DNA of 33,855 nucleotides, from contig QHVC01000002.1 of NCBI GenBank assembly GCA_003222205.1, forward strand, positions 1 to 33,855, given 5' to 3'. A program made the translations under genes and the position numbers. Each line of letters opens with the position of its first letter. Positions within the stretch are counted from its first letter, which is position 1. Below the pieces are notes generated by a model, which was not told the DNA's origin, ran no database searches, and saw only the letters and a program-made list of their open reading frames with translations. The DNA comes from Gemmatimonadota bacterium (lineage in GTDB: Bacteria; Gemmatimonadota; Gemmatimonadetes; Gemmatimonadales; GWC2-71-9). Positions 12,072-25,573 of this stretch are shown piece after piece.

Positions 12072-13744
12072 ATGACGTTCCGCACCCGCGTCCTACTCGC
12101 GTTCGCCCCGGTGGTGCTCGTGCCGTTGCTGGTGTTCGGCATCGGCGTGCGCCGCGCCGTGCGCGACCGCCTCGCGGCGCAGTACCGCCGGCGGGTGGAC
12201 GCCTTGGTGGCGGTGATCGAGGAGGACCTCGCCCAGCGCAGCCGCTCCATCGGCGACCGCCTCGGCTCGCTTACGGGGGCGGCGCTCGAGGACAACCACC
12301 TCCGCGCGGCCGCGGTGCAGGCGGTCGATCGCCAGTACCTGCTCGACTACGCCGGGGCGGCGATGCGGCTCGCGGGGCTCGACATGCTGCAGATCCAGGA
12401 CGCCAACGGCCGCATCGTCAGCTCCGGCCACTTCCGCCAGGAGTTCGACCGTCTCGAGCCCGCCCTGCCGCGGCTGCTCGCGACCGCGCCCGGTGGCGTC
12501 GCGCTGGTACGGGCCCGCACGCCGGAGGGAGCGTTCCTCGTGCTGGCGCGCGTGGACTCGCTGCGGCTCGGCGGCGGCCGCTTCACCGTCGTGGGCGGCC
12601 TGGCGGTGGATTCCGCCGCACTGGCGCGGCTGGCGCGGGACACCACGTTGCGCGTCGACTTGGAGTACCCCGGCGGCGTGCTCGCGTCGCGCGCCTCCGA
12701 TACCACCGCGGCGGACGAGATCGTGGGCGAGGTGCCGCTGGCATTCGTGGACGGCGACTCGGCGCGGCTCGCCCCCGCGCGCATCGTGGTGACGGCGCCG
12801 CTCACCGCCCTCGCCGACGTGCGTCGCAGCATGGACTTGGGGTTTCTGGTCGCCGTGCTGGCGACGGTTGCCGCGGCGATGCTCTTGGGCGGCTGGCTCG
12901 CCTCGCGGGTCACGCGCCCGCTCGCGGACCTTGCGGAGACCGCCAGACGTGTGGATCTGGAGCGGCTCGACGTCGCGTTCGGCAGCGAGCGGCCGGACGA
13001 GATCGGCGCGCTGGCGCGGCTCCTCGGCGAGATGACCGAGCGGCTGCGGGCGGGGGCGGCGCGGCTCCGCGACACCGAGCGCCGCGCCGCGATGGGCGAC
13101 CTCGCCCGGCAGGTAAACCACGACGTCAGGAACGGGCTCGCCCCGCTTCGCAACGTGCTGCGGCATCTGGCCCGGGTCGCCCGCGAGGAGCCGGACCAGC
13201 TGCCGCACGTGTTCGCCGAACGGCAGACGACGCTCGAGTCGAGCCTCGCCTATCTCGAGACGCTCGCCACGAATTACGCTCGTCTGTATCCTGAAACCCG
13301 GGCCACTCCGTGTGACGTGAACGAGGTCGTCCGGGAGACGTTGCGCCTCGTCGCGCCGCCCGACGGCGTCCGCGTCGAGACGGCGCTCGCCGATTCCCTG
13401 CCGCGAGTCCGCGCCGATGCGTTCGTGCTGCGCCGCATCCTCGAGAATCTGGTGCGCAACGCGGTCGAGGCGATCGACGGCGCGGCGGGCGCCGTGACCG
13501 TCACCACCGAGCAGCGGGGGGGGGCCGGTGGCAACGTGCGCGTCACCGTCGCCGACAACGGCAAGGGCATGACGCGTCCCGAGCTGGAGCGCGCCTTCGA
13601 CGACTTCTACACCACCAAGCCCGGCGGCACCGGGCTCGGCCTATCGATCGTGCGGCGGCTGGTGCTGGACCTGAACGGCAGCGTGAAGGTCGAAACGCAG
13701 CCGGGCCAGGGGACCAAATTCTTCGTTGAATTGCCGGGGGAGCC

Positions 13745-13748
<4 letters not shown>
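12072..13748 (+). CDS. Membrane sensor histidine kinase with HAMP domain (NtrB-like)
   Basis: Two TM segments; HAMP (GGWLASRVTRPLADLAETARRVDLERLDV); H-box QVNHDVRNGLAPLRN; N-box LVRNAVEAI; DNGKGM; GGTGLGLSIVRRLV. Confidence 0.95.
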
Positions 13749-15106
<1,358 letters not shown>

Positions 15107-15111
15107 ACTCG

Positions 15112-15171
15112 TTGTACCAATCCAGTTGACACATTCCAATGCGCCCCCTATGTTCACTCGAACTGGTACAA
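15112..15171 (+). promoter_or_regulatory. Sigma70-type promoter bracketed by inverted operator-like half sites, upstream of the Clp_N-GntR gene
   Basis: TTGACA (15126..15131)-N17-TATGTT (15149..15154); TTGTACCA (15112..15119) and TGGTACAA (15164..15171) are perfect reverse complements about 52 bp apart centre to centre. Confidence 0.75.
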
Positions 15172-15204
15172 GATCCTGTTCGATCTGCTAGGGGGAGGTC
15201 CCTC

Positions 15205-16089
15205 ATGCCCGGCTTCAGTTTCACCGACCGTGTTCGCTGGGTGCTACAAGCCGCGCGGGAGGAGGCCGCCCGCCTTCGCAACGGTTTTGTGGGCACCGAG
15301 CACCTCCTGCTCGCTCTAGTCAGAGACAAGAAGGGAGGGGTGGCGGCGCGTGTGCTGCTGAGCTTTCAAGCTGACCTCCAGGGAATCCGGCGCGCTATCG
15401 AGTCAAGGATCAAGCAGGGGGAGTCAGCGATCGCGGAGCGCCAAGATCTTCCTTACACGTCGCGGGCCAAGAAGGTGCTCGAGCTCGCGATGAACGAAGC
15501 GAATGAGCTGAACCACCGATACGTGGGCACAGAGCACCTGCTCCTCGGCCTGTTGCGAGAGGACAAGGGAATCGCCGCTCAAGTGCTCACGGAGGCAGGT
15601 GTCACGATAGAGCGCGCCCGCGCCGAGACGCTGCGAATCCTGGGCGATCATGCTTCGGCTGCCGAGCGCCCGATGTCAGGCTTCGCAGTGCGCATCGACG
15701 ATTCCGCCGACCGCTCCATCCATGAGCAGATCGTGGCACAGGTTCAGGAAGCGGTAGCCACGGGCACGCTCCGCCCGGGTGACCGGCTCCCGCCCGTGCG
15801 GCACCTGGCCGATCAGCTCGACATTGCGCCCGGCACGGTCGCGCGCGCGTACAGCGAGCTCGAGCGGCGGGGGATCGTCGTGACCGATGGCGCCCGTGGC
15901 ACGCGCGTCGCTGATCGTCCGCGAACGCCTGTCGCGGCGAGGAACCGTCCCGAAAACCTGGTGGGATTGTTGCGACCGGTCGTGGTGGCGGCCTTCCATC
16001 TCGGCGCGACCGCCGAGGAACTGAAGTGTGCGTTGGAAGAGGCCATGCGTGGGATATTCGGGGACTCGTCGGAACCAAGCGCGGCGTAG
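15205..16089 (+). CDS. Fusion protein: double Clp N-terminal (ClpC-type) domain plus GntR-family (YtrA-like) winged-helix regulator
   Basis: Two Clp_N repeats with NGFVGTEHLLLALVR and HRYVGTEHLLLGLLRED, followed by SIHEQIVAQVQEAVATGTLRPGDRLPPVRHLADQLDIAPGTVARAYSELERRGIVVTDGARGTRV (GntR HTH) and a short YtrA-like C-terminal helix. RBS gggggagg. No AAA+ domain. Confidence 0.92.
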   Translation: MPGFSFTDRVRWVLQAAREEAARLRNGFVGTEHLLLALVRDKKGGVAARVLLSFQADLQGIRRAIESRIKQGESAIAERQDLPYTSRAKKVLELAMNEANELNHRYVGTEHLLLGLLREDKGIAAQVLTEAGVTIERARAETLRILGDHASAAERPMSGFAVRIDDSADRSIHEQIVAQVQEAVATGTLRPGDRLPPVRHLADQLDIAPGTVARAYSELERRGIVVTDGARGTRVADRPRTPVAARNRPENLVGLLRPVVVAAFHLGATAEELKCALEEAMRGIFGDSSEPSAA

Positions 16090-16160
16090 CGCCGAGCCGC
16101 CGATACTTTAGTGCGCCTTTAGGCGACGGTGTACACCGCGACACAACCTCGTTCCGTGAT

Positions 16161-16180
16161 TCGTGTTCACCCGAACACGA
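16161..16180. repeat. Hairpin downstream of the Clp_N-GntR gene and upstream of the TPR gene
   Basis: TCGTGTTC-accc-GAACACGA, perfect 8-bp stem. No T tract, so not called a terminator. Confidence 0.5.
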
Positions 16181-16226
16181 GCTCACTCCCGCCGAATCGC
16201 ATCTCCCACTGGCTGCTGTAGTTCCC

Positions 16227-16251
16227 CGACACCCGACACCTGGCACCTGAC
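16227..16251. repeat. Heptad tandem repeat (reverse orientation)
   Basis: CGACACC CGACACC TGGCACC TGAC; reverse complement is GGTGCCA GGTGTCG GGTGTCG. Confidence 0.75.
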
Positions 16252-16291
16252 GTGCTTCTCCTCCGGGCGACCCCAACACGCCGGAGGAGTT

Positions 16292-17236
16292 ATGCGTTAC
16301 CAGTTCACCCTCACCGAGCCCCGCCGCCACCTTGAATGGCTGGGGCTCATTCCGCTGGCCGCTGTGATCGTCGCGATGGTCCTCGCGGCGGCGTGCGGCG
16401 AGAAGACCCCGCCGCGCGCCGACGCGAGCGAGGGCACCGTCGGGCCGACGGCCATCGTCACGACGCCCACCACGGGCTCGCCCATCGTCGGCCCGGTGAC
16501 GTTCGAGCGCGCCGAGTCGGTCTATCACGAGCGTCGCTTCGACGAGGCGACGACCCTGTTCAAGGCCTACACGGAGTCGAGCCCAAAGAATCCGTGGGGG
16601 TTCTACATGGTCGGGATGTCGTCGTGGAAGTCGGGCGACCGGACGGGCGCCGAGGCGGCGTTCGGCCGGGCGCTGCAGCTCGACTCCACGCACGTCAAGG
16701 CGCACCTCAATCTGGGCCGCGTGCTGATCGAGGACGGGCGGCCGTCGGAAGCGGTGCCGCACATCGAGCGGGCCATCGCGCTCGACTCCGTCTCCAGCGA
16801 AGGCTACCGGCTACTCGGCCGCGCCTATGACGCGCTCGGCAAGACCGACAGCGCGGTGTCGGCCTACCAGAAGGCGCTGGTCCGCGATGACGGCGATTTC
16901 TGGGCGATGAACAACCTGGCGATGGTCTTCATCCGCCAGGGGAAGTTCGAGGACGCGCTGGGCCCGCTGGCCCGCGCCACCCAGCTCGCGCCTGAGGTGG
17001 CCACGTTCCAGAACAACCTCGGCATCGCCCTCGAGGGGGCGGGCCATCTCACGGCCGCCGCGCAGGCGTACCAGGCGGCGATCGTGGCCGACAGCACCTA
17101 CGGCAAGGCGGCGACGAGCCTCGCCCGGGTGCGGCAGCTGAAGGAGGACCCGAACATCCCACCGGTGGACCTGACGTCGCTGGTGGGGAAGTTTGTGCTG
17201 CTCATTGAGCAGTGGAAGACGGAAGCTGGCTGCTGA
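16292..17236 (+). CDS. TPR-repeat lipoprotein/membrane-anchored protein
   Basis: N-terminal hydrophobic segment AAVIVAMVLAAACGEK (lipobox-like); multiple TPRs (NPWGFYMVGMSSWKSGDRTGAEAAFGRALQLDSTHVKAHLNLGRVLIEDGRPSEAVPHIERAIALD). RBS ggagga. Confidence 0.9.
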   Translation: MRYQFTLTEPRRHLEWLGLIPLAAVIVAMVLAAACGEKTPPRADASEGTVGPTAIVTTPTTGSPIVGPVTFERAESVYHERRFDEATTLFKAYTESSPKNPWGFYMVGMSSWKSGDRTGAEAAFGRALQLDSTHVKAHLNLGRVLIEDGRPSEAVPHIERAIALDSVSSEGYRLLGRAYDALGKTDSAVSAYQKALVRDDGDFWAMNNLAMVFIRQGKFEDALGPLARATQLAPEVATFQNNLGIALEGAGHLTAAAQAYQAAIVADSTYGKAATSLARVRQLKEDPNIPPVDLTSLVGKFVLLIEQWKTEAGC

Positions 17237-18179
17237 AGATCTTCTCCCCGTCGAAGCGGCCGTTCTCGATGAAGATCTCCGAGATGGCGCGCCCGGACGA
17301 GATGCTCCCGGCCATGTGGATCCCGGAGACGTTGGTCTCCAGCGTCTCCGGATCCAGCCGTGCGCGAAGCGTATCGGGCTCGAGCGCGATGCCGAGCCGG
17401 CGGAACAGCTCGAAGTCGGGGTGATAGCCCGTCAGGGCGTACACCCGGTCGGCGGGCAGCTCTTCGCTGCGGCGCCCGGCGCGGATCGTGACCGCCCGCT
17501 CGTCGATGCGCTCCACGGTTGCGCCGAAGCGCGCCGCGATCTCTCCGGCCTTGATGCGGTTCTCGATGTCCGGCTTGACCCAATACTTGATCGATGGGGG
17601 AAGCGCCTTGCCTCGGTATACGAGCGTGACGCGGGCCCCCGCGCGGAACAGCTCCAGCGCCGCCTCCACCGCCGAGTTGCGCCCGCCGACGACGACGACG
17701 TCGAGGCCGTAGCCCCCGTGGGGCTCGTCGAAATAGTGGCTGACGTGCGGCAGGTCTTCACCCGGGACCCCGAGGAGGTTGGGGTGGTCGAAGTAGCCGG
17801 TGGCGAGCACGAGTCGCCGAGTGACGATGCGCTCCTCGCCGGTGCGACCGGCCAAGAGGCACTCGAGGGCGCCGTTGCGCCGCTCCGCCGCGACGAGACG
17901 CGTGTGGGCCCGGAATCGCACACCCTCCACGCGGGCGACCCCGCGGTAGTACTTGAGGCCTTCCTCGCGGGTGGGCTTCTGGCCCGCGCAGACCAGCGGG
18001 TGCCCGCCGATTTCCATCCGCTCCGGCGTCGTGAAGAACGTCATCCCGATCGGATAGCGCGTGATCGAGTTGACGAGCACCCCGCCGTCCAGGAGCAGGG
18101 CATCCAAGCCGCGGCGCTTGGCGGACACGGCGCACGCGAGACCGATCGGCCCCGCGCCCGCGATCACGGCGTCTTCCAT
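17202..18179 (-). CDS. ypdA: YpdA/Bdr-family FAD/NAD(P)-dependent oxidoreductase (putative bacillithiol disulfide reductase)
   Basis: DAVIAGAGPIGLACAVSAKRRGLDALLLDGGVLVNSITRYPIGMTFFTTPERMEIGGHP; VVVVGGRNSAVEAALELFRAGARVTLVYRG; HMAGSISSGRAISEIFIENGRFDGEKI. Confidence 0.88.
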   Translation of the reverse strand: MEDAVIAGAGPIGLACAVSAKRRGLDALLLDGGVLVNSITRYPIGMTFFTTPERMEIGGHPLVCAGQKPTREEGLKYYRGVARVEGVRFRAHTRLVAAERRNGALECLLAGRTGEERIVTRRLVLATGYFDHPNLLGVPGEDLPHVSHYFDEPHGGYGLDVVVVGGRNSAVEAALELFRAGARVTLVYRGKALPPSIKYWVKPDIENRIKAGEIAARFGATVERIDERAVTIRAGRRSEELPADRVYALTGYHPDFELFRRLGIALEPDTLRARLDPETLETNVSGIHMAGSISSGRAISEIFIENGRFDGEKIFSSQLPSSTAQ

Positions 18180-21469: not shown

Positions 21470-22166
21470 GCGACTCCACGTCGGTACCTCCGGCTACAAC
21501 TTCGACGAGTGGAAGGGCGCCTTCTACCCGGAGAAGCTGCCTGCCGACCAGTGGCTGCGCTATTACGCCGAGCGGCTCCCCGCGGTCGAGATCAATTACA
21601 CGTTCTATCGGATGCCGAACGCGAAGACGATCGGGCAGTGGATGGAGGCCACGCCCGATGGCTTCACGTTCGTGCTCAAGGTGTCGCAGCGCATCACGCA
21701 CCACGCGCGGCTCAAGGAGGTCGAGCAGCCGCTCCGCTACTTCACCGATACGGCGGCGAAGCTGGGGCCGAAGCTCGGGCCGCTCTTGTTTCAGCTCCCG
21801 CCCAATTTCAAGAAGGACGCCGACCGGCTCGGCGAAGTGCTGCGGCTCGTGCCCGAGACGATCCGCACCGCCTGGGAGTTCCGCCATGAGAGCTGGTTCG
21901 CGGACGACGTCTACCACGTGCTGCGCGCCCGGAACGCGGCGCTGTGCGTCGCCGACACCGAGGACGGTCACACGCCGCTCGTCGGCACGGCGGACTTCGG
22001 CTACTTTCGCCTGCGGGACGAGGGCTACACCGGTGAGGACCTGGCGAGCTGGGCCGGCAAGGTGAAGGAGATCGGGGCCGCCTGGCGCGAGGCCTTCGTG
22101 TTCTTCAAGCACGAGGAAGCGGGGCAGGGCCCCGCTTTGGCGCAGCAGTTCGCGAAGCTGTTCTAG
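21468..22166 (+). CDS. DUF72 domain-containing protein (YecE family)
   Basis: MRLHVGTSGYNFDEWKGAFYPEKLPADQWLRYYAERLPAVEINYTFYRMP; GPLLFQLPPNFKKD; WEFRHESWF; YFRLRDEGYTGEDL. Confidence 0.93.
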   Translation: MRLHVGTSGYNFDEWKGAFYPEKLPADQWLRYYAERLPAVEINYTFYRMPNAKTIGQWMEATPDGFTFVLKVSQRITHHARLKEVEQPLRYFTDTAAKLGPKLGPLLFQLPPNFKKDADRLGEVLRLVPETIRTAWEFRHESWFADDVYHVLRARNAALCVADTEDGHTPLVGTADFGYFRLRDEGYTGEDLASWAGKVKEIGAAWREAFVFFKHEEAGQGPALAQQFAKLF

Positions 22167-22987
22167 CCGCGCGCGCGCTTCTTCGCGGGCCGCTCTTCTT
22201 TTTCCTCTTTCTGTTTCCCCTTCGCCAGACTGGCCTTCAGCGCTTCCATGAGATCGATGATCTGCGTCTTCGGCGCTTCCTCCGGCGCCTCGACGATCTC
22301 CTGGCCCTCGACCTTCTTCTGGATCGCCTCGAGGATGCGCTGGCGCACCTTGTCCTCGTAGGCCTCGGGGCGGAATTGGTCGCTGGCCGCCTGATCGATG
22401 AACTGCACGGCGAGCGCCAGCTCGGCGGGCTTGATCTCCACCTCGCCAACCGGTACCTCCTCGATCGAGCGTAGCTCGTCCGCGTAGCGCAGCTGCTCCA
22501 TCGCGAGCCGCCCGCCGATGGGACGGATCATGATGAGGTATCCCTTGCCGCGCGCGGCGTACTGGCCGATCGCCACGCGTCCCGTCTTCTTCAGGGCCTC
22601 GGCGAGCAGCCGGTAGGCGCGCTCGCCCCCCTTGTCGGGGCCGAGGAAGTACGTCTTCTCGAGGAAGATGCGATCCACCTGCTCGGCGGGGAGGAACTCC
22701 TTCACGTCGATCGCTCCGGTGCCCCGTTCGTCGAGGGCCTTGAGCTCCTCGGCGGTGAACTGGACGTACTGGCCTTTGCTGAACTCGTAGCCTTTGATCA
22801 TCCCGTCCTTGTCCACCACCTCGCCATCCTTGGGACAGAAGTACTGCTGCTTCAGTCGTGACCCGTCGGTCTTGTGCAGCCAGTTGAAGGAGACCGCGGC
22901 GGTGGGCTCGCCGGCCGAGAACAGCTTGATCGGCACGGAGACGAGGCCGAAGGAGATCGTGGCGGAGCCGATTGCATGAGCGCTCAT
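22163..22987 (-). CDS. ku: Ku protein (bacterial NHEJ)
   Basis: MSAHAIGSATISFGLVSVPIKLFSAGEPTAAVSFNWLHKTDGSRLKQQYFCPKDGEVV; FLPAEQVDRIFLEKTYFLGPDKGGERAY; Lys-rich C-terminal tail. Confidence 0.96.
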   Translation of the reverse strand: MSAHAIGSATISFGLVSVPIKLFSAGEPTAAVSFNWLHKTDGSRLKQQYFCPKDGEVVDKDGMIKGYEFSKGQYVQFTAEELKALDERGTGAIDVKEFLPAEQVDRIFLEKTYFLGPDKGGERAYRLLAEALKKTGRVAIGQYAARGKGYLIMIRPIGGRLAMEQLRYADELRSIEEVPVGEVEIKPAELALAVQFIDQAASDQFRPEAYEDKVRQRILEAIQKKVEGQEIVEAPEEAPKTQIIDLMEALKASLAKGKQKEEKEERPAKKRARG

Positions 22988-23014
22988 ATGGGGTCTATGA
23001 TAGAAACACTCCCC
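22972..23014. promoter_or_regulatory. Candidate bidirectional ku/ligD promoter
   Basis: TATGATA at 22996..23002 reads TATGAT on + and TATCAT on -, between the ku ATG (22987) and the likely ligD ATG (23015). Confidence 0.5.
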
Positions 23015-25573
23015 ATGCCGACAGACAAGCGGCCCCCCGCCGCTCCGACCGATCCGCTAAGCGCTTACCGCGCCAAACGTTCCGTCGAGCGCACGCCGGA
23101 GCCGGCGGGGCTCGCGTTGCCGCCGACTGCGGCGGGCGGCTTGTTCGTCGTCCACAAGCACGCCGCACGGCGGCTGCACTGGGACCTGCGGCTCGAGATG
23201 GAGGGGGTGCTGCGCTCGTGGGCGGTGCCCAAGGGCCCGTCGCGCAACCCCGCCGACAAACGCCTCGCCGTGCACGTCGAGGACCACCCACTCGAATACG
23301 GCGACTTCGAGGGGATCATCCCCGAAGGCAACTACGGCGCGGGAGCGGTCATCGTCTGGGACCGCGGCACCTGGACGCCGGTGGAGGATCCGCTCGCCGG
23401 GCTCGTGAAGGGGAAGCTGCTCTTCGACCTGAACGGCTACAAGCTCAAGGGCCGCTGGACCCTGGTGAAAATCAAGAAGGGCCAGAAGGAGTGGCTGCTC
23501 ATTAAGGAAAGGGACGCGTACGTCGCGACCAACGGCGACGTGTTCCCCGAAGACTCGGTGCTCTCGGGCTGGACGGTTGAGGAGCTGAAGGAGGGGAAGG
23601 ACCGCGCGGCGCCGATCCGCAAGGAGCTGGAGAAACTCAAGGCGCCGCAGCGGGCAGTGACCGCCAAGGACGTCTCCCCGATGCTCGCCGAGACGCGCGA
23701 GCAGCCGTTCTCGAAAACCGGTTGGGTGTTTGAGCTGAAGCTCGACGGTTACCGCGTGCGCGCCGCCCGCGAGCACGGCGAGGCGCGGATCCTGTCGCGC
23801 AACGGCAACGACCTGACCGCGCTGTTCCCGGAGATCGCGCGGGCGGTCGCGGCGCTGCCGTTCCACGACGTGGTCCTCGACGGCGAGCTGGTCGTCCCCG
23901 ACGAGACCGGGCGGCCCAGCTTCCAGCGCCTCCAGAACCGCGCCAAACAGTCCCGGGCGCTCGACATCCGCCGCGCCGCGGTGGCGACCCCCGCGGTCTT
24001 CTACGCCTTCGACCTCCCGGCGTTCGAGGGCTTCGACCTGCGCGGGCTGCCGCTGGTGAGACGCAAAGAGATCCTGCAGCGCCTGCTGCCGCGCGCCGGT
24101 CCGCTCAAGTTCCTCGAGCACTTCGAGACCAAGGGCGAGGAGCTGTACGAGCGCGTGGTGCAGATGGGGCTCGAGGGGATCATGGCCAAGAAGGCGGACT
24201 CTACCTACCGCTCGGGGCGCTCGGCCAACTGGCTCAAGATCAAAGCCGACAAGACCGGCGAGTTCGTCGTCGTCGGCTATTCGGCGCCGAAGGGCTCGCG
24301 CGGCGGGTTCGGCGCGCTGCATCTCGCAGCCTACGACGGCGGTGAGCGCGGGAGACTGGTGTACGCGGGCCGCGCGGGGAGCGGCTTCACGGCGAAGGAG
24401 TTGAAGGACGTCGCCGCCCAGCTCGAGACGCTGCGGGTCCCCAAGCCACCGGCGGACGGTCCCGTGCCGACGGGGAAGGACCACACCTGGGTCCGGCCCA
24501 AGCTCGTCGCAGAAGTGCGGTACAAGGAGTGGACGGAGGAGGGGCTGCTGCGGCACCCGGTGTTCGTCAGATTCCGCGACGACAAAGATCCCAAAGACTG
24601 CGAATTGCCCAAACAGGGAATGGGGGATGCGGGATGGGTCCCCCCACCGCCCCCTACGCATCCCGCATCCCCCATCCCCCATCCCGAGGTTGTCTTCTCA
24701 AACCTCGACAAAGTCTTCTGGCCCGACGACGGCTACACGAAGGGCGACCTGATCGAGTACTACCGCACCATCTCTCCGTGGCTGCTGCCGTACCTGAAAG
24801 ACCGTCCCGTCGTGCTGACGCGGTTCCCCGACGGCATCGCGGGGAAGTCGTTTTTCCAGAAAGACGCGCCGGGCTTCATCCCCGACTGGATGCGCACCGA
24901 GCGGATGTGGAGCGAGGACGCGCAGCGCGAGATCGACTACTTCGTGTGCGACGACGAAGCGGCCCTCCTCTACCTCGCCAACATGGCGACGATCCCGCTG
25001 CACGTGTGGGCGAGCCGGGTGGGCTCGCTGGAGCGGCCGGACTGGTGCGTCCTGGACCTCGACCCCAAGGAGGCGCCGTTCGAGCACGTCGTCACGGTCG
25101 CGCGGGCCGCCCACCGTTTGTGCGAGGACATCGCGCTGCCGTCGTTCATCAAGACCAGCGGCTCGACCGGCCTGCACGTGCTGCTGCCGCTGGCGCGCCA
25201 GCTCACCTACGAGCAGTGCCGCACGCTGGCGGGGCTCTTGGCGCGCGTCGTGGCGGCCGAGCTGCCGGAGATCTCCACGATCACGCGCCAGGTGGGGAAG
25301 CGCGGCGGCAAGGTGTACATCGACTACGTCCAGAACGGCCACGGGCGGCTGCTCGTCGCGCCGTTCAGCGTGCGGCCGCTGCCGGGGGCGCCGGTGTCGA
25401 TGCCGCTCAAGTGGAGCGAGGTAACGGCGAAGCTCGACATGCGGGCGTTCACGATCAAGACCGCGGTGGCGCGGATGAAGCGGCTCAAGGAGGACCCGCT
25501 GCTGCCGCTGCTCGCGACGGCGCCGGACTTGGCGGGCGCGATCGCGAAGCTGGAGCGGCGGGTCGCGGGCTGA
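23015..25573 (+). CDS. ligD: Multifunctional ATP-dependent DNA ligase LigD, domain order phosphoesterase-ligase-polymerase
   Basis: PE: FVVHKHAARRLHWDLRLEMEGVLRSWAVPKGPS; ligase: VFELKLDGYRVRAAREHG; polymerase: VVFSNLDKVFWPDDGYTKGDLIEYYRTISPWLLPYLKDRPVVLTRFPDG, WCVLDLDPKEAPFEHVV, IKTSGSTGLHVLLPL. Confidence 0.96.
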   Translation: MPTDKRPPAAPTDPLSAYRAKRSVERTPEPAGLALPPTAAGGLFVVHKHAARRLHWDLRLEMEGVLRSWAVPKGPSRNPADKRLAVHVEDHPLEYGDFEGIIPEGNYGAGAVIVWDRGTWTPVEDPLAGLVKGKLLFDLNGYKLKGRWTLVKIKKGQKEWLLIKERDAYVATNGDVFPEDSVLSGWTVEELKEGKDRAAPIRKELEKLKAPQRAVTAKDVSPMLAETREQPFSKTGWVFELKLDGYRVRAAREHGEARILSRNGNDLTALFPEIARAVAALPFHDVVLDGELVVPDETGRPSFQRLQNRAKQSRALDIRRAAVATPAVFYAFDLPAFEGFDLRGLPLVRRKEILQRLLPRAGPLKFLEHFETKGEELYERVVQMGLEGIMAKKADSTYRSGRSANWLKIKADKTGEFVVVGYSAPKGSRGGFGALHLAAYDGGERGRLVYAGRAGSGFTAKELKDVAAQLETLRVPKPPADGPVPTGKDHTWVRPKLVAEVRYKEWTEEGLLRHPVFVRFRDDKDPKDCELPKQGMGDAGWVPPPPPTHPASPIPHPEVVFSNLDKVFWPDDGYTKGDLIEYYRTISPWLLPYLKDRPVVLTRFPDGIAGKSFFQKDAPGFIPDWMRTERMWSEDAQREIDYFVCDDEAALLYLANMATIPLHVWASRVGSLERPDWCVLDLDPKEAPFEHVVTVARAAHRLCEDIALPSFIKTSGSTGLHVLLPLARQLTYEQCRTLAGLLARVVAAELPEISTITRQVGKRGGKVYIDYVQNGHGRLLVAPFSVRPLPGAPVSMPLKWSEVTAKLDMRAFTIKTAVARMKRLKEDPLLPLLATAPDLAGAIAKLERRVAG
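24616..24686. repeat. Heptad palindrome inserted in-frame in the ligD linker
   Basis: ATGGGGGATGCGGGATG (24620..24636) and CATCCCGCATCCCCCAT (24659..24675) form a perfect 17-bp inverted repeat with 22-nt loop; extra ATCCCCC unit on the right. Encodes MGDAGWVPPPPPTHPASPIPHP. Confidence 0.85.

Follow-up and report, generated by a model that had tools for sequence, protein, structure and literature searches.

Background

The closest functional parallel of the protein described here is ClpC2 of mycobacteria (Rv2667 and its M. smegmatis homologue). This Clp_N protein has no AAA+ modules and acts as a repressor of its own promoter (PMC10030653). Its operators have the sequence CGTCAAC-N5-GTTGACG, are often doubled and overlap the -35 and -10 elements, and they are bound by a surface of the Clp_N-type C-terminal domain that includes R185 and R189 (PMC10030653). 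Cyclomarin A releases ClpC2, which then acts as a sponge that protects ClpC1; in the parts of that study considered here, no target of ClpC2 other than its own promoter is mentioned (PMC10030653). Unfolded protein has been proposed as a second trigger, which would titrate ClpC2 (PMC12913811).

The window analysed here, i.e. the whole stretch of 33,855 nucleotides from a Gemmatimonadota bacterium, encodes a protein that shares with ClpC2 a ClpC-derived double Clp_N domain and the lack of AAA+ modules. The two also have in common paired palindromic operators (candidate ones in our case) over their own -35 and -10 elements; self-repression has been shown for ClpC2 and would be expected for the fusion. 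However, ClpC2 recognizes DNA by a Clp_N-type surface, whereas the fusion carries a separate GntR winged helix behind Clp_N, predicted to serve this purpose; the candidate operator, TTGTAYCA-N7-TGRYACAA, is unlike that of ClpC2, and the phylum is different. A response to a ligand has been demonstrated for ClpC2, while for the fusion it is suggested by analogy. The dedicated GntR domain and the other operator sequence argue that the fusion is not an orthologue of ClpC2. A literature search for Clp_N combined with GntR or with helix-turn-helix domains found nothing. A ligand-responsive Clp_N transcription factor, such as a preliminary description postulated, has a precedent in mycobacterial ClpC2 (PMC10030653).

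The fusion also resembles the YtrA subfamily of GntR regulators, with which it shares a GntR-type winged helix followed by a short two-helix tail and, presumably, autoregulation. YtrA proteins comprise about 125 aa, have no sensor domain before the helix and are usually encoded in ABC-transporter operons. The fusion, on the other hand, has 160 residues of Clp_N ahead of the helix and does not reside in a transporter operon: the fusion loci have no conserved neighbour, and in the window the gene lies next to an NtrC-type two-component pair and a TPR gene. With the N-terminal domain of ClpC it shares the fold, but it lacks the AAA+ modules and its Clp_N is joined to a DNA-binding domain. Finally, two cyanobacterial proteins (L039:7782-8990 and L040:7764-9011) likewise combine a helix-turn-helix domain with a double Clp_N in a single chain, but there the HTH_3 (XRE-type) domain is N-terminal and a Uma2 nuclease-like domain is found at the C-terminus. 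This architecture is apparently an independent fusion, so that, to judge from these sequences, the combination of helix-turn-helix and Clp_N arose at least once more. A stand-alone double Clp_N protein of 196 aa, very near the N-domain of ClpC and devoid of AAA+ or helix-turn-helix domains, has been also identified (L046:6655-7245); it is possibly a free decoy or adaptor.

Results

Gene, domain architecture and fold

The features of the locus, all on the + strand, are as follows:

15112-15134, +, candidate operator 1, TTGTACCA-N7-TGACACAT, a copy of the family motif that overlaps the -35 element
15126-15154, +, sigma-70-like promoter TTGACA-17-TATGTT, the sole one found in 15000-17400 (0.1 expected by chance)
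15149-15171, +, candidate operator 2, TATGTTCA-N7-TGGTACAA, a weaker copy (12 of 16 positions, 4 mismatches) that overlaps the -10 element
15190-15198, +, ribosome binding site AGGGGGAGG, read from the sequence
15205-16089, +, Clp_N-Clp_N-GntR-tail fusion gene, 294 aa (ORF, Pfam, AlphaFold2 model, orthologues)
15253-15411, +, first Clp_N repeat (Pfam PF02861, 50.4 bits)
15493-15645, +, second Clp_N repeat (Pfam PF02861, 70.3 bits)
15655-15675, +, flexible linker, residues 151-157 (pLDDT <50)
15724-15909, +, GntR winged helix (PF00392), with an APGT recognition segment invariant in the family alignment
15937-16047, +, two-helix YtrA-like tail, predicted dimerisation element (model helices 245-265 and 270-281; alignment with Lmo2241, 4ham)

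The reading frame is intact from the ATG at 15205 to the stop codon at 16087-16089. An N-terminal extension to 15139, present in the ORF list, was dropped, because translation would then begin upstream of the -10 hexamer. The preliminary description had proposed, from the sequence, a double Clp_N with both GTEH motifs retained, a GntR helix-turn-helix and a YtrA-like tail with no AAA+ module, and every element of this architecture was recovered. Pfam matches Clp_N in two stretches (E 1.3e-31) and GntR with 54.3 bits against a cut-off of 27 (E 1.1e-14), and detects no AAA+ family in the protein, and hence none of the D1/D2 modules that define the ClpC/ClpA unfoldases. The top PDB sequence matches of residues 5-153 are ClpC and ClpC1 N-domains (E 4.5e-36), while the GntR half aligns over residues 164-286 with Lmo2241 (4ham), which together with 3by6 and 2du9, all short YtrA-type GntR structures, covers both the helix and the tail. 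The AlphaFold2 model (mean pLDDT 88.9) comprises, in this order, an eight-helix Clp_N domain, the flexible linker, the winged helix and the two-helix tail. Comparison of its Clp_N half with ClpC N-domains reveals a shared fold, with a TM-score by target up to 0.94 (ClpC1-NTD, 6pbs_B, rmsd 1.3 Å) and a further match to 5hbn, the phosphoarginine-bound N-domain of ClpC. In sequence, this half matches the genome's own ClpC at 69% over 147 columns and M. tuberculosis ClpC1-NTD at about 46% identity. A frameshift or an assembly join between the two halves is excluded by the relatives found in 19 other genomes. There is good support for a one-component regulator whose sensor is Clp_N.

Promoter and candidate operators

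Directly upstream of the fusion gene, outside 15205-16089, lies a double inverted repeat with the consensus given above. The -35 hexamer TTGACA lies within the first site and the -10 hexamer TATGTT opens the second, the hexamers being 17 bp apart; RNA polymerase would be kept out by a protein at these sites, from which we infer autorepression. The motif is present upstream of all 20 family genes at a level of at least 12 of 16 positions (at least 14 of 16 in 16 of the 20), and 18 of the 20 promoters have a second copy at a distance of 29-40 bp, whereas shuffled promoters never reached 14 positions (0/4000, maximum 13); these per-promoter statistics are optimistic, because the consensus was taken from the DNA upstream of the same 20 genes.

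Genome scans provide an independent check. At no more than 1 mismatch, the window genome has a single motif site (15113-15133); in 16 other fusion genomes, 17 distinct sites lie at fusion promoters and 5 at other places, with 12 forward matches summed over the rows of a reversed-pattern control. At no more than 2 mismatches, 9 genomes yielded 18 distinct sites, 13 of them at the fusion promoter; the 5 remaining ones do not exceed what chance would give (19 control sites). Neither scan found an excess over controls away from fusion promoters, at thresholds that would pass over weak operators such as the second site of the window with its 4 mismatches. The five matches outside fusion promoters at the stricter threshold (genomes G384, G287 and G371) were considered as targets and set aside as all being at chance level; 3 of them are inside long coding frames, and those in G371 and on contig C203 of G287 are at or just upstream of a predicted start. 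As judged from the genome sequences, recognizable motif sites are thus restricted to the fusion locus. No Rfam family was found in the window.

Genomic neighbourhood

In the window, a histidine kinase and an NtrC-type sigma-54 activator are encoded directly upstream on the same strand (12072-15106), and the fusion gene has its own promoter after them; a TPR gene follows downstream, also on the same strand (16163-17236). A comparison of the fusion loci shows conserved neighbours within a single genus at most. Of the 17 loci whose flanks could be read, 11 have a convergent next gene, encoded on the opposite strand (ORF calls being heuristic), which indicates that there is usually no operon. With no conserved neighbour and the next gene mostly facing the other way, the simplest target of the regulator is the fusion gene itself. 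Taken with the restriction of recognizable operators to its own promoter, which supports self-repression and not a proteostasis regulon, the fusion gene looks, on sequence grounds, like a solitary autorepressor. Thus, the regulator postulated in the preliminary description stands as a one-component protein with a Clp_N sensor, but its control of a wider, proteostasis-related gene set is not borne out, since, to judge from the conserved promoter sites, it very probably acts on its own gene only. Two further loci of the window deserve mention. A YpdA-type bacillithiol disulfide reductase above the NCBIfam cut-off (17202-18179, - strand), which suggests bacillithiol use in this lineage, is followed by a proline dehydrogenase, and at 22163-25573 Ku adjoins LigD (with ligase, phosphoesterase and primase domains) in divergent orientation, forming a bacterial end-joining locus.

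Phosphoarginine and the McsB/ClpC context

Sensing of arginine-phosphorylated protein had been suggested from the two GTEH motifs. The window protein keeps both residues aligned to E32 and E106 of B. subtilis ClpC, the phosphoarginine-contacting glutamates. Among the 20 family members, 16 retain E32, 11 retain E106 and 10 retain both, as aligned to B. subtilis ClpC; the B. subtilis ClpC and M. tuberculosis ClpC1 N-domain references of this comparison and of the topology test below were entered by hand. The window genome (2.97 Mb, 217 contigs, 98.6% complete) encodes a true ClpC on contig C69 side by side with an McsB-type arginine kinase, as well as ClpB, a different unfoldase. The argument from the GTEH motifs is weak, for their glutamates are nothing unusual in Clp_N, ClpB keeping the second one, and the presence of both is necessary, but not diagnostic, for a phosphoarginine receptor. 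Since 19 of the 20 fusion genomes encode McsB, the glutamates have not disappeared in step with the kinase. Phosphoarginine could be a ligand of the window protein or of its clade, whereas, on the evidence of these sequences, it cannot be the defining signal of a family that retains both glutamates in only half of its members despite the nearly universal kinase.

Distribution and evolution of the family

A profile search recovered the fusion or a relative from 20 of 400 Gemmatimonadota genomes (the window genome included), which represent 15 of 140 genera; the identical set of 20 came back with a deeper profile. These counts cover Gemmatimonadota, the sampling outside the phylum being slight. 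The only close relative that bears a name comes from a Gemmatimonadaceae MAG (L038), which suggests Gemmatimonadota as the phylum of the window genome. The distribution is patchy, with 4 of 21 genomes in one family, and it is patchy inside a single genus too. Some tBLASTn matches had hinted at a fusion in Actinomycetota (hit H17 on a Streptomyces plasmid, residues 62-273; hit H2 on a Mycobacterium plasmid), but the ORFs there show none, and no plasmid record covered 80% of the query. Likewise, an apparent in-frame TGA in several relatives, which could have meant a split Clp_N/GntR gene pair, turned out to be the terminal stop inside the match. One fusion-bearing genome encodes a second GntR-half homologue with no recognizable Clp_N half in frame (L068, G365:C477:551-883), and the G287 relative (L043:8809-9774) may carry at its start an additional, incomplete copy of the Clp_N N-terminus, MSFDFADGVRRALARMRD, ahead of the regular domain.

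The GntR halves form one clade against the other GntR proteins of fusion genomes (100/98, with just three outgroup sequences). The N-domain tree placed the window clade among ClpC, suggesting repeated capture of Clp_N from ClpC; a single fusion clade of the Clp_N halves was, however, not rejected (p-AU 0.218), and together with the GntR clade this makes a single origin the simpler reading. Identity to the window protein is 46-80% in the GntR half and 24-62% in the Clp_N half; by this sequence comparison, the latter evolves much faster. Its branches are long, and in four members (L064-L067) Clp_N is below the Pfam cut-off or not found, the domain being assigned there through alignment to relatives. 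With such divergence, a conserved interaction with a ClpC ligand may not hold family-wide. The closest pair (L057/L058) nevertheless shows purifying selection on the Clp_N half, with dN/dS of about 0.14, and window-clade pairs give 0.18-0.22.

Discussion

That the regulator should serve its own gene alone hints at a further function of the protein, which the Clp_N domain would supply. We regard as probable a ClpC2-like, self-derepressing sensor, i.e. an autorepressor with a Clp_N sensor that is possibly a decoy for ClpC ligands. A GntR/YtrA-type dimer would bind the two inverted repeats over the -35 and -10 elements of its own strong promoter and shut it off. The ClpC-derived Clp_N domain would serve as the sensor; once occupied by a binder of ClpC N-domains, such as an adaptor, a peptide directed at ClpC or a protein that is unfolded or marked, it would cause DNA binding to be lost and the fusion protein to accumulate. 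The accumulated protein would then serve the Clp system as holdase or decoy and protect ClpC, as ClpC2 does in mycobacteria. The architecture, the promoter, the paired sites and their confinement to the locus can be read from the sequence; that the fusion protein binds these sites and represses is what we infer from them, and release by a ligand and the decoy role are proposed by analogy with ClpC2.

Other explanations would assign the Clp_N domain different roles. It might dock on the Clp machinery or its adaptors so that the repressor is, under certain conditions, handed over to ClpCP and the gene derepressed, Clp_N setting the stability of the protein instead of sensing a ligand. The closeness of the N-domain to that of ClpC means that it could bind the same adaptors, and complexes of adaptors with ClpC N-domains have been solved (MecA, 2y1r; YjbA, 8b3s). 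The Clp_N half, however, diverges fast. Free N-domains, moreover, usually compete for adaptors and do not become substrates, and we find this explanation rather improbable. It is unlikely, too, that the protein is a global proteostasis regulator, whose Clp_N would read phosphoarginine or damaged protein and whose GntR half would govern genes for chaperones and proteases: the two ClpC-type glutamates of the window protein and the joint presence of McsB and ClpC speak for it, but the window genome has no second operator at up to 1 mismatch, there is no excess over controls at up to 2, and retention of the glutamates falls far behind that of McsB.

We give little credence to local control of neighbours, such as the downstream TPR gene or a divergent gene, with Clp_N as merely a ligand domain; the same-strand orientation of the TPR gene would permit it and upstream genes, which are often divergent, could share the operator region, yet conserved neighbours are confined to one genus and the gene downstream is mostly convergent. 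That Clp_N is a decaying, functionless remnant on an autoregulated GntR protein is very improbable, for in spite of the long branches and the four members in which the domain is hardly recognizable, the closest pair shows purifying selection on its half and its fold is predicted with high confidence.

Returning to the self-derepressing sensor, it is conceivable, and we put this forward tentatively, that the Gemmatimonadota protein is a second, independently evolved answer to the task of ClpC2: a self-derepressing Clp_N decoy built on GntR, with a rapidly changing sensor that would follow stress signals or peptides directed at ClpC in this phylum. If this is right, bacteria of two phyla would independently have recruited the substrate-recognition domain of ClpC as a self-regulated sensor, one binding DNA through the Clp_N-type domain itself and the other by fusion to a GntR repressor. 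The operator sequence would offer a ready reporter for binders of ClpC N-domains in Gemmatimonadota, be they unknown natural products, adaptors or phosphoarginine proteins, which makes the signal read by Clp_N directly testable. If true, bacterial transcription factors would have in Clp_N a portable sensor module that has been adopted repeatedly.
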